Made by a program: the position numbers and the translations under genes. A model generated the notes under the pieces. The model had not been told where the DNA came from. It saw only the letters and a program-made list of their open reading frames with translations, and did no database searches. From Planctomyces sp. (GTDB taxonomy: Bacteria; Planctomycetota; Planctomycetia; Planctomycetales; Planctomycetaceae), in assembly GCA_002702685.1 (NCBI GenBank), contig PABD01000034.1:1-52826 (forward strand): a stretch of 52,826 nt of DNA. The letters run 5' to 3'. Positions 12,854 through 52,826 of the stretch are shown here, piece by piece. How positions within the stretch are numbered: position 1 is the stretch's first letter; each line of letters starts with the position of its first letter.

Positions 12854-13342
12854 ATGAGTATCGCCGAGACGATCAAGCAGTCCTACCAACTTTCCGATCA
12901 GGTGGTGCAAGCTTATCTGAATGACCTGTCGGATGATGAACTCAAAATCCGCGCGGTGGCGGGCATGAACAATATCAACTGGCAGGTCGGTCACATCATT
13001 GTGTCCGAACACCAGATCGCCGAGATGCTTTGCCCCGGGTCGATGCCCCCGCTCCCGGAAGGAATGGCGGAAATCTATGATCGCGCCAATGTCGATAAGG
13101 ACGACCTCCCCTTCTACACGAAGGAGCGTCTGTTTGAGCTCAAAGAAGAACAGCGGGCGGGGACCATCGCAGCGATCGACAAGTTGTCCGACGAAGAGCT
13201 GATGAAACCGTCTCCCGAGAAGCTGAAGATGCTGGGAGGAACGATCGGGGCCATCTTCCTGATGCTTGGCTCGCACTGGACGATGCATGCCGGGCAGTGG
13301 GTGGCGGTGCGTCGGCTCACGGGGAAAGAAGTTAAAATCTGA
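12854..13342 (+). CDS. DinB-family protein
   Basis: About 160-aa helical protein with NNINWQVGHIIVSEHQIAEML and HWTMHAGQWVAVRRLTGK. Confidence 0.75.
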   Translation: MSIAETIKQSYQLSDQVVQAYLNDLSDDELKIRAVAGMNNINWQVGHIIVSEHQIAEMLCPGSMPPLPEGMAEIYDRANVDKDDLPFYTKERLFELKEEQRAGTIAAIDKLSDEELMKPSPEKLKMLGGTIGAIFLMLGSHWTMHAGQWVAVRRLTGKEVKI

Positions 13343-26926: not shown

Positions 26927-28531
26927 ATGAACTGGTTACTGCTTTCGCGAATTCTGGGACAACTCGGAATTCTGATCGGCTGCTCGATGGTCGTCAGTCT
27001 GCCGTGGGCCTTCCCCGTGATGGGCCAGACGCCGACCTTTGAGACCCAGGGCTTTCTGGGCCTGCTCTTTTCCATTTTCTGCAGCCTCGTTGTAGGTGGT
27101 ACCCTGTACTGGATTGGCCGTAACGACCGGGCGAATATCCTCCGCAAGGAAGCCCTCGCCATCGTGGGGCTGGGCTGGCTGCTCGCCGGTTTCCTCGGTG
27201 CGCTTCCCTATCTCTTCTCACAGACCTATCGCACGGTTGATCAACCGATGACGGTGTTCGATGCCTTCTTTGAATCCGTCTCGGGGTTCACGACGACAGG
27301 GGCTTCCGTGCTGACGCAACTGGAAGATCCCCAACTGACCGATCCGGAGAGTGAACACGTCAAGCTGATCCCGCGCTGCATTCTCTTCTGGCGCAGTTTT
27401 ACCCACTGGCTGGGAGGAATGGGAATCATCGTCCTCTTCGTGGCGATTCTCGGACAGCTGGGGGCGGGGGGAAAAGCGCTCATGCGGCGCGAGGTCCCGG
27501 GACCCATCAACGAAGCCGTGCGTCCGCGCGTGCGTGAAACGGCGATGGTGATGTGGGCGATTTACATGTCGTTGACCGCCATTTTTACATTGGTGTACTT
27601 CCTCGAAGGAATGTCTGTTTATGATGCCCTCTGCCACACCTTCGGCACGCTCGCCACGGGAGGGTTCAGTACTTACAACGACAGCATAGGGTACTTTCAA
27701 TCCGTCACGATCGAGATGACCACCGTGCTCGGCATGCTGATGGCGGGGACAAACTTCTCCCTGTATTACTTTGTCTTCCGGTATTCGAGCCGGAATGAGC
27801 ACTTCAGTCTGAAACAACGTCTCGCACCGCTCTATCGAGACCCGGAACTGAAGACCTACCTCGCCATTCTCTTTTGCGCGACCGTGGCGCTGACACTGTC
27901 GCTCTGGTCGAATGAAATCTACGACGGCATCTTCACCTGTCTGCGCCATTCGACCTTTATTTCCGTGTCGATCATGACGACCACCGGCTACGGAACGGAG
28001 AACTTCCACGAGTGGAGCGAGTTTGCGAAAGGCCTGCTGCTGCTGCTGATGTTTATCGGGGGCTGCTCGGGGTCGACGGCCGGTGGCCTCAAGGTGATTC
28101 GCTTTCTGCTCTTCGCCAAAATTCTGCGTCTGGAAGTCGAACAGGCGTTCCGACCGAACGTTGTGCGGTCGCTCAAAATCTTCGGTGTCTCGGTCGACAA
28201 ATCGCTACGGCATGAAGTGATGGTTTACTTCAGTATCGTGCTCTTTATCTTCATCTCCAGCTGGATGATGCTTTCCGCCATCGAACCGGACGACCAGTGG
28301 CAGCGGGGCGAACAGAACGTCAAAGCGGAGAAACTGCTCGACTGCGCGAGCGCGGTCGCTTCCTCGCTCAATAACATCGGGCCCGGACTGGGGGTCTTGG
28401 GGCCCGCCGAAAACTATTCCGGTTTCTCGAGCGCCGGCAAGTTCCTGCTCACGATGCTGATGCTGCTCGGCCGGTTGGAACTCTTCGCCATCCTGGTACT
28501 CTTCTTCCCCTCATTCTGGCGAAACCAGTAG
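26927..28531 (+). CDS. trkH: TrkH-family potassium uptake protein
   Basis: Selectivity-filter-like segments [42 protein letters not shown] and [25 protein letters not shown] motif. Confidence 0.92.
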
Positions 28532-28544
28532 GTAGTTCAGACGA

Positions 28545-28600
28545 GGGTGGCCCAGACAATCTCGTCAGAGTTGTCCGGGTTGCGTCAGCAACACATAAGC
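28545..28600. repeat. Intergenic two-hairpin repeat, copy 1
   Basis: gggtggCCCAGACAAtCTCgtcaGAGTTGTCCGGgttgcgtcagcaac; hairpin 1 at 28551-28579, hairpin 2 (GTTGC-gtca-GCAAC) at 28579-28592; homologous to 52400-52450. Confidence 0.8.
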
Positions 28601-28803
28601 AACGAATGCCCATTAAACGTGAGAGACCATTCGTCAGAGTGATTGAACCAAGAAGACACCAGGGACACCAAGTCGGAAGACAGCAAGCTGACACCACGAG
28701 CATTCAATTTCGATCCAATGCTGATCTCTTCTGCATTCCTTTTCGTGTATTTTGTGGTTAACAGATTATTCTTCGCGTCAGCTGGTGAAACTGTTTCGGC
28801 CGA

Positions 28804-30123
28804 TTAACTGAAGATCTCCCGGATCGGCTCTCCACCATCGGTGATCGGAACAGGGCGGTTGTCGGCGTCGTAAAGTTCTTCCCGCGGATTGATGCCGAGG
28901 GCGCAGTGGATGGTGGCGTGAAAGTCGGGGATCGATACGGGGCGGTCGACGATGTTCTGCGACAGGTCGTCGGTTTGACCGATCGTGATGCCGTTCTTGA
29001 GTCCACCACCTGCGAGAATCATGCTGAACGTCTTGCCCTGGTGACCGCGTCCGCCCCCCGCGTCGAATCCCGGAGGTCGACCGAATTCGGTACCGACGAC
29101 AATCAACGTCTTATCGAACATCTTCTTCGCTTCCAGGTCGAGGACGAGTGATGAGAGGGCGATGTCGAGCTCTTCGATCAGTTTGTACTGGTCTTCGATT
29201 GTGGCCTGGTGCACGTCCCAACCCGCGCCGTTCAGAAAGTTGAGGTTGTGGGATACTTCGACGAACCGCACCCCCGACTCCAGCAGCCGCCGCGCGAGCA
29301 GACAACGCTGTCCGAACTCGCCCCCGTAGCCATTTCGCAGATCGGCCGGTTCGCGGTCGAGTTCAAAAATGCGAGCGAAATCAGGTCCGGCCATCGCCTG
29401 GGCCTGTTCGACGGCGGCGTCGTAATCGGCGATAAGCTGATCTTCCTGATGCCGATTCACATAGCCTTCGCGAACGGCTTGCAGCAGTTTTTCGCGGCGG
29501 AGATTCCGTTCCCGGGACAGGTCTTTCGGGCGGGAAATTCCCTTCGGCCCCGCGGCGGTTTCGGTGAGATAAAGGTAACCGTGCCGGGTTCCGAGGAAAC
29601 CGGGTCCGCGGGTGACGTTCGGGTAACCCATCAGAACATAGGCGGGAACATTGTCACCCGCGGCGCCTTTCTGATGCGCGACGATGGAGCCGACGGAAGG
29701 ATAGACGATCGTACCGGATGTCGGTCGCCCCGTGTGGACGCGGTTGGTCGCGGCGGCGTGTTCATCGATCACATCGTGATGAACAGTCCGCACAATATTG
29801 AATCGATCAAGAATCGGGGCGCAGCGGCTTAAGTGCTGACAGACCTGGGTGCCCGGAATGGCGGTGTCGATCGCGTCGTAATACGAGCCCGGTTTTTTGT
29901 TTTTGGGATCGCCTTTGCGTTTGGGGTCCCACGTGTCAATCTGACCGGCACCTCCACCCAGCCAGACGAAGATGCAATGCTCCGCTTTCCCGACCGGCAT
30001 CGGCGCGCCGGTTTCGTTCGCGAACAACGGGTTCCCCAGCATCGCCAACGCCGAAGCCGACAACCCGGCCGCGCCGGTATGAGTGAGGAAATCACGTCGT
30101 GTGTATTGATCAGAATTAAGCAC
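28804..30123 (-). CDS. DUF1501 domain-containing protein
   Basis: TAT-like leader with [75 protein letters not shown]. Confidence 0.92.
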
Positions 30124-51226: not shown

Positions 51227-52336
51227 TTACTTTCCCGTTCCCAGGAATTGTTTGATGGAATCGTAAATCGCGTCCTTGCTGCTGATTTCCGAAAGGATCA
51301 TGTTTTCCCAGTCGCCCGATATCTTACGCAGTTCGCGGATGAACTCGCCGGACCCATACGGGCTTTCGACCTGGCCATAACAGAACAGGTTACTGACCGG
51401 GAGTAACGTCTGCTGTAGTTGTTCGAGACACGCGTTGTTGTCTTCGCCCCAGTTGTCACCATCAGAAAACTGAAAACAGTAAATGTTCCAGTCGTTAACG
51501 GGGAAGTCGCGCTGAACGATTGCCTCGGCTGCCTTGTAAGCGGACGAAATCCGTGTTCCGCCGCTTTCGCGGATGCGAAAAAAAGTATCTTCATCGACTT
51601 CATGGGCGACGGCATCGTGGACGACATATCGGATTTGCAGACCGTCGTAATGTTTCTTGAGCCACGTGTTGATCCAGAAGGCTTCGATGCGGACGATCTC
51701 TTTCTGGTCATCGGTCATCGAACCGGAGACATCCATCATGTAGATAATGGCGGCGTTAGCATCGGGTTCGGTTGTCGTCGTCCACGACCGAAACCGTTCG
51801 TCCTCGCGCGTGGGGATGATCACCGGTTTCTCCGGGTCGTAGGTACGCGAGGCAATCTGCCGTTTGAGCGCTCTTTTGTATGTACGCTTGAAGTGCCTGA
51901 GCGAATCGGGGCCGGTGGGACTGATCGTGTTGTACTTGTCCTTCTGGCTCTTGAGGTTGTCATTTCCTTTGGGCTCGATACGAGGAAGGTGCAGTTGGTC
52001 GCCGAGCATATCCGCCAGTTCGTCGAGCGATACCTCGACCTCCCGCACATGTCGGCCCGGTTGATCTCCCGCCTGGCCCTGGCCATCTCCTTCGTCCTGT
52101 CCGCCGCTCCCGATCGGTTGACCGACATTGCCATCACCCTGTCCCGCACCGCCGCTCCCGCGTTTACCGAACTTGAAGCGGGGGATATCGATGCTCGAAA
52201 CAGGAATACTGACCGACTCCCGCCCCTTGCGACCGAACATCTCACTGCGCGTGATGTACTTCCGCAGATTCTCGCGCACCTTCCCCTTCAAAATCTTATT
52301 GAAGCGATTCAGGTCCTGATCAATACTGCGAGGCAT
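51227..52336 (-). CDS. yhbH: DUF444 family protein (YeaH/YhbH)
   Basis: SIDQDLNRFNKILKGKVRENLRKYI, AAIIYMMDVSGSMTDDQKEIVRIEAFWINTWLKKHYDGLQIRYVVHDAVAHEVDEDTFFRIRESGGTRISSAY. Confidence 0.94.
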   Translation of the reverse strand: MPRSIDQDLNRFNKILKGKVRENLRKYITRSEMFGRKGRESVSIPVSSIDIPRFKFGKRGSGGAGQGDGNVGQPIGSGGQDEGDGQGQAGDQPGRHVREVEVSLDELADMLGDQLHLPRIEPKGNDNLKSQKDKYNTISPTGPDSLRHFKRTYKRALKRQIASRTYDPEKPVIIPTREDERFRSWTTTTEPDANAAIIYMMDVSGSMTDDQKEIVRIEAFWINTWLKKHYDGLQIRYVVHDAVAHEVDEDTFFRIRESGGTRISSAYKAAEAIVQRDFPVNDWNIYCFQFSDGDNWGEDNNACLEQLQQTLLPVSNLFCYGQVESPYGSGEFIRELRKISGDWENMILSEISSKDAIYDSIKQFLGTGK

Positions 52337-52399: not shown

Positions 52400-52450
52400 G
52401 GGTGGCCCAGACAATCGCGTAAGCGTTGTCTGGGTTGCGTTAGCAGCACA
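52400..52450. repeat. Intergenic two-hairpin repeat, copy 2
   Basis: gggtggCCCAGACAAtCGCgtaaGCGTTGTCTGGGttgcgttagcagc; hairpin 1 at 52406-52434, hairpin 2 at 52434-52447. Confidence 0.8.
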
Positions 52451-52598
52451 AAGGCGGGAATCACAGATACAACAGGAGACGCTCCCTGAAAAGAACCGCA
52501 ATTCAAGGCAACCATCACCTGATGTACCTGGCCCCCCTGTTCTCCTTTTTTCGAGTCTTCGCGCCTTCGTGTTATACTCACGGGTTGAAGTCAGGGTG

Positions 52599-52826
52599 TT
52601 ACTTACCTTCTTTCTTGACATCTCCGCGGGCGAAGATACTGGCAACGTATTGCAGGACATCGGTGGCCGATTCCTCATTATAACCACTGTTGCGGATCAG
52701 GCGTGATTTGACGATGTCGATTTTCTCCTGTGTGTCGGCGTCGATAACGTTCGAGACGAGGCTCGTCAGCTTGATCGAGTCTTTCTGGTCTTCGAACAGT
52801 TTCATCTCGAGCGCCTTCTGCAACCG
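52599..52826 (-). CDS. prkA: PrkA-family serine protein kinase, C-terminal end (truncated by the window)
   Basis: [75 protein letters not shown]; adjacent to DUF444 and SpoVR. Confidence 0.88.

Follow-up and report, generated by a model that had tools for sequence, protein, structure and literature searches.

In GTAG-type REPs a GTRG head marks the base of a hairpin; the repeats occur in high copy number between genes, form inverted dimers and flank the gene of a REP-associated tyrosine transposase (RAYT) (PMC2817692; PMC3733652; PMC6006769; PMC8266576), and the published families are described as having a single hairpin of 20-50 nt, which may be bulged. Two inverted REPs with their heads outside, moving as one unit, form a REPIN (Bertels and Rainey 2011, PMC3116915). 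The TIRs of P. putida and P. fluorescens, in which a REP hairpin is joined to a second stem-loop, flank RAYT genes and are present in hundreds of copies (PMC3733652). REPs are already known from Planctomycetes, and the same survey assigns several REP families to R. baltica (PMC3733652). The mechanism of REP dissemination has been described as unresolved even in E. coli (PMC8266576). The IS200/IS605 elements IS608 and ISDra2 use an HUH-Tyr transposase and subterminal hairpins with a 5' guide, and they leave no target duplication. A hallmark of RAYT/TnpAREP enzymes is that they cut one strand specifically, at CT (or CA) of a single-stranded REP. To our knowledge, the recognition and spreading of REPs by RAYTs is an open question, with work confined to a few proteobacterial pairs.

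The window, that is, the whole stretch of 52,826 nucleotides analysed here, contained two copies of a two-hairpin repeat (Table 1). Their positions and sequences, and the GTNA loops of all four hairpins, were as given in a preliminary description of this DNA, which had missed the invariant GGGTGG head 5' of the first stem that identifies the repeat. Hairpin 1 of copy 1 had the inner stem CTC-GTCA-GAG, a single bulged T and an A-C mismatch (28554/28576); the inner stem of copy 2 was CGC-GTAA-GCG. Copy 1 was located between the convergent TrkH and DUF1501 genes, and copy 2 had the 3' end of PrkA on one side and the DUF444 gene on the other. Past position 28625 the likeness of copy 1 to the full element was at the shuffle level and the other end was gone, while the interior of copy 2 scored 40, against 35 for the best of 40 shuffles, and its right-end hairpins were gone. 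Both window copies were solo ends of the TTGC type whose partner had been lost. By themselves they were weak evidence, and the case rests on the family. The TrkH and DUF1501 genes, adjacent in the window (28531-28804), were far apart in one congener (G002) and on different contigs in another (G001), and the copy 1 repeat sits at this synteny break. A CACGAAGGCGCGAAG repeat adjoined copy 2 (window 52557-52571, minus strand); matches of this type numbered 27 in the genome and 6 in the control, and two more REP copies (contigs C106 and C132) directly abutted such a repeat.

Table 1. Coordinates of the two repeat copies and their flanking genes in the window
Feature	Position	Strand	Remark
TrkH cation transporter, flanks copy 1	26927..28531	+	convergent with next gene
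Copy 1 of two-hairpin repeat	28545-28599	+	head + hairpin 1 + hairpin 2
Copy 1 head GGGTGG	28545..28550	+	GTGG, guide-like tetranucleotide at foot of hairpin 1
Copy 1 hairpin 1	28551..28579	+	CCCAGACAATCTC-GTCA-GAGTTGTCCGGG
Copy 1 hairpin 2	28580..28591	+	TTGC-GTCA-GCAA
Copy 1 tail and interior remnant	28592..28625	+	resembles positions 48-80 of full 165-bp element
DUF1501 protein, flanks copy 1	28804..30123	-	
DUF444 (YeaH-like) protein, flanks copy 2	51227..52336	-	
Copy 2 of two-hairpin repeat	52400-52454	+	head + hairpin 1 + hairpin 2
Copy 2 head GGGTGG	52400..52405	+	
Copy 2 hairpin 1	52406..52434	+	CCCAGACAATCGC-GTAA-GCGTTGTCTGGG
Copy 2 hairpin 2	52435..52446	+	TTGC-GTTA-GCAG, one T-G wobble
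Copy 2 interior remnant	52447..52536	+	resembles full element up to its position 139 of 170
PrkA kinase, C-terminal part, flanks copy 2	52599..52826	-	runs off contig

The genome of the window (G000) comprised 4.30 Mb in 267 contigs and was 65.6% complete. A chance match was rejected, since the window held two matches to the core hairpin pattern with at most three mismatches where shuffling predicted 0.04, and the pattern was found 102 times in the genome against 3 for the reversed pattern. The genome-wide covariance-model search proposed in the preliminary description detected 149 ends (E<=1e-3). With about 149 copies and with covariation present, the repeat was not confined to two copies without covariation, the outcome which that description had named as fatal to its view of a REP/MITE-like spreading structured element; that view was borne out by the number of ends, by the covariation in pairing and by a RAYT gene inside a pair of copies. 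GGGTGG or GGGTAG stood just 5' of the first stem in almost all core matches, and the columns G1, G2, G3, T4 and G6 were nearly invariant among 108 aligned ends, so that the GTRG tetranucleotide of GTAG-type REPs was found directly 5' of the hairpin. The high copy number and extragenic location also corresponded to GTAG-type REPs (149 ends; 7 of 68 sites in ORFs), but in place of a single hairpin of 20-50 nt a second covarying hairpin directly adjoined the first. The GTNA loops of the window were often replaced by GAA, GCCA or GCA elsewhere in the family. As in REPINs, 51 inverted pairs had their heads outside, most of them 164-166 bp long, and no tail-to-tail pair was found among the 149 ends; the 47 unpaired ends included the two that bracketed the RAYT. 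In nearly all of the 51 dimers whose sequence was read, the second hairpin was TTGC/TCGC at one end and TGCC/GGCC at the other. The two ends of a dimer tended to differ in the hairpin 1 inner stem as well (alike in 6 against 13.9 expected, P=0.004, for copies that are not independent).

Other palindromic forms were present in the same genome. A second, longer dimer of GTAG-headed REPs was seen on C84 (L073:946-1256) and also on C18, C37, C49, C86, C144, C190, C211 and C230; it measured 290-311 bp where both ends were scored, and its interior held the inverted repeat AACCACAGATGAACACGGATTTACAC (41 copies, 0 in the control). The AACCACAGATG repeat was the apparent interior of the long REPIN in this genome, and one remnant of it followed TrkH in G002. 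“Double-foot” palindromes, in which hairpin 1 was flanked by the head and its complement without hairpin 2, were located at L019 (C28:3349-3394) and L033 (C101:7400-7461). This form is what a central deletion of the dimer would give, and similar palindromes are known for RAYT subclass 2.4 (PMC6006769).

The REP-associated transposase that the preliminary description had suggested looking for was found between a pair of copies on contig C5. The genome contained three IS200-like genes, all above the cut-off of 80 bits of the NCBIfam REP-associated tyrosine transposase model (REP_Tyr_transpos, NF047646; 101.6, 85.1 and 81.1 bits), with the C5 gene scoring 101.6 bits. The NCBIfam IS200 equivalog gave just 33.8 bits with a cut-off of 55, which placed the transposase outside IS200/IS605. 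The C5 RAYT was located between the inverted ends C5:12240-12292 (+) and 12880-12933 (-), of the TGCC type upstream and the TTGC type downstream, in the arrangement of a cognate RAYT (REPtron), and it was the only one of the three RAYTs bracketed by inverted ends of the two-hairpin family. Because of this placement, the locus has the build of an autonomous form of the element. The RAYTs on C229 and C4 (L046, L047) were rejected as movers, with no two-hairpin unit nearby and a different clade. The C5 RAYT matched E. coli TnpAREP (PDB 4er8) by sequence, and 4er8 was also the top fold match of a modelled relative (pLDDT 87; E 3.5e-10, TM 0.73). The HVH motif, the catalytic Tyr, the Y..N pair and WQ were invariant in 10 homologues; the residues in alignment A2 were H66-V-H68, Y137, N141 and W116-Q117, of which H, H, Y, N, W and Q were invariant. 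The position of E. coli R104 appeared to be occupied by Trp in the alignment to 4er8. The E. coli TnpAREP residues W94 and Q95 have been reported as conserved in REP-associated subclasses (PMC6006769).

The repeats very probably represent individual ends of a miniature element (REPIN) of this planctomycete that is non-autonomous and depends on a RAYT, and this judgement includes the mechanism outlined here. The complete element is usually about 165 bp long, with two inverted ends around a poorly conserved interior and with each end composed of GGGTGG, hairpin 1, hairpin 2 and a short tail. Following the precedent of E. coli TnpAREP and of IS608, the GTGG-headed strand would fold into two hairpins in single-stranded DNA, for example at the replication fork. 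The C5-encoded RAYT, an HUH/Tyr nuclease, would bind this fold, the GTGG head would select the cleavage site, the cut would proceed via a covalent 5'-phosphotyrosine, and the excised piece would be joined elsewhere without target duplication. We infer that the RAYT would cleave the repeats, mobilise them in trans and read hairpin 2. Surviving insertions lie mostly downstream of genes, and many, both window copies among them, have since lost one end.

The sites of insertion were surveyed with genes called simply from ORFs of at least 150 aa. Only 7 of the 68 REP sites fell within ORFs, compared with 80% of positions drawn at random from those loci, and the orientation relative to genes, also raised in the preliminary description, was co-directional at 30 sites, convergent at 29 and divergent at 2. 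The copies avoid genes and divergent promoters. The 3' end of TrkH was kept in both congeners, G001 and G002 (83% and 78%), and copy 1 was absent 3' of the orthologous gene in each. This absence bears on the alternative that the RAYT-spread repeats now serve the host, for example by binding nucleoid proteins or gyrase, and mostly reflect exaptation. The 47 unpaired ends, whose hairpins stayed intact long after partner loss, and the host roles of REPs reported in E. coli (PMC8266576) favour such recruitment; it is nevertheless unlikely, as copy 1 is not common to the congeners and the non-Watson-Crick cells of the stems look like symmetrical decay.

The compensatory changes in the stems, taken in the preliminary description as a sign of selection on the folded RNA or DNA, were real as covariation in pairing. 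Among the 108 aligned ends, 97.1% of the cells of the two-hairpin structure were paired, and the covariation score, counted over 103 distinct ends, was 0.274 against 0.092 for shuffled and <=0.032 for slid partners. Full replacement was seen at pair 18-27 (UA 45, AU 31, GC 24) and at pairs 39-48 (UA, GC, CG), 40-47 (GC, CG), 10-34 and 14-30 (AU, GC), and the hairpin 2 pairs 38-49 to 41-46 covaried. Much of the covariation separates subfamilies, so that the cells are not independent events, and the paired changes appear to be variation among subfamilies of a DNA element. They gave no support for a selected RNA. RNA under selection tolerates G-U but not A-C, and since the non-Watson-Crick cells comprised 19 G-T and 19 A-C, there was no sign of RNA-type selection on the folded strand. 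An RNA function of the hairpins at the 3' ends of genes, as terminators, mRNA stabilisers or processing sites, with the paired changes due to RNA selection, is very unlikely. E. coli REPs reportedly have such roles, and the sites were indeed mostly at gene 3' ends; however, this location is accounted for by the avoidance of promoters and genes, no Rfam family matched over its gathering score within the window, and an RNA role leaves the fixed-length inverted pairs and the same ends around the RAYT unexplained. A conventional MITE, descended from a DDE-transposase insertion sequence and bounded by terminal inverted repeats, would likewise have inverted ends around a short interior and a fixed composite size, but is extremely improbable because no target duplication was found in 41 elements searched for 2-8 bp, the ends are head-tagged hairpins, and the gene that such ends enclose encodes an HUH RAYT.

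The association of two-hairpin ends with the RAYT extended across Planctomycetia. Homologues of the C5 RAYT formed a clade present in about 32 of 199 genomes of the class, with a score that separated it from most other RAYTs. In a tree the clade was on one side of a branch with an SH-aLRT of 91 (quick search), and the other two RAYTs of the genome were outside it; the named members were from Planctomycetaceae, Pirellulales and other planctomycete MAGs. At least 10 ends were found in 11 of 12 genomes with this or a close RAYT and in 2 of 28 without (40 genomes, its own and relatives; P=4e-7, a value too small because such co-occurrence tests ignore the kinship of the genomes). G001 and G028 had many ends without a close RAYT. 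The pattern of hairpin 2 plus tail, GTNGCGNAGCNACAAGA, occurred in at least 10 copies in 12 genomes (up to 110), with at most 4 in the controls, and was enriched where a clade RAYT was present. A strict scan for the GTRG head, hairpin 1 and an immediate hairpin 2, which misses ends on contig edges, showed that 19 of 42 clade RAYTs were bracketed by two-hairpin ends and 31 of 42 had any unit, against 0 and 5 of 59 other RAYTs; any two-hairpin unit was seen in 1 of 210 shuffles. Contig ends, decay or limits of the scan were considered the causes for the 23 unbracketed clade RAYTs, 11 of them without any detected unit. Two clade RAYTs, L129 (G002) and L139 (G013), had an in-frame stop; G002 carried 57 ends and G013 only one. 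Head-to-tail tandem arrays of two-hairpin units with a period of about 62 bp were observed on both sides of the RAYT in G027 (L136; G027:C1:2995206-2998682), whereas other genera have inverted dimers instead.

Comparison of the units showed which parts were kept. The 65 units contained 54 hairpin 1 sequences and only 14 hairpin 2 cores, the latter all paired because the scan demands it; the loop of hairpin 2 was mostly GNA and the tail was CAAGAGG. Between genera, hairpin 1 was wholly different, and the head, hairpin 2 (NNGC..GCNN) and the CAAGAGG tail were kept. The exact genus-specific DNA pattern had no matches in the named genomes, presumably because hairpin 1 is genus-specific, although the protein search did find homologues there. 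A possible, still tentative, explanation is a two-part code, in which the RAYT clade of Planctomycetia would read a constant module (GGGTGG head, hairpin 2 and CAAGAGG tail) together with a fast-changing hairpin 1 that would give each lineage, perhaps each end, its specificity. If so, RAYT and repeat families could split while the catalytic geometry is retained. A distinct RAYT clade that spans many genera of a single class, with one hairpin free to change and one kept, is a natural experiment, and comparing its RAYT-repeat pairs would reveal the portion of the folded DNA that the enzyme recognises. The family also accounts for many of the repeats that lie between planctomycete genes, a large class.

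All features except the second hairpin are established REP, RAYT and REPIN biology (PMC2817692, PMC3116915, PMC3733652, PMC6006769, PMC8266576). A literature search, outside which most subscription papers lay, found no account of planctomycete two-hairpin REPs or of a RAYT clade that extends through a class and conserves a second hairpin. Among known two-hairpin arrangements the Pseudomonas TIRs come closest, resembling the planctomycete ends in the joined stem-loop, the flanked RAYT genes and the copy number; they are described with a degenerate GTAG-1 REP and an unrelated stem-loop, and are not reported to conserve the second hairpin across genera (PMC3733652). The HUH-Tyr transposase, the hairpins with a 5' guide and the lack of target duplication are shared with IS200/IS605, but the transposase here is of the RAYT type and each end of the element is an inverted copy of the other. 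The heads-out inverted arrangement is that of a REPIN, with two hairpins per end, nearly always different second hairpins and a length of about 165 bp in the planctomycete element. The head, copy number, intergenic location, inverted dimers and repeat-flanked RAYT are those of GTAG-type REPs, from which the planctomycete unit differs in having a further hairpin next to the first and a conserved tail, both kept while hairpin 1 changes completely between genera.
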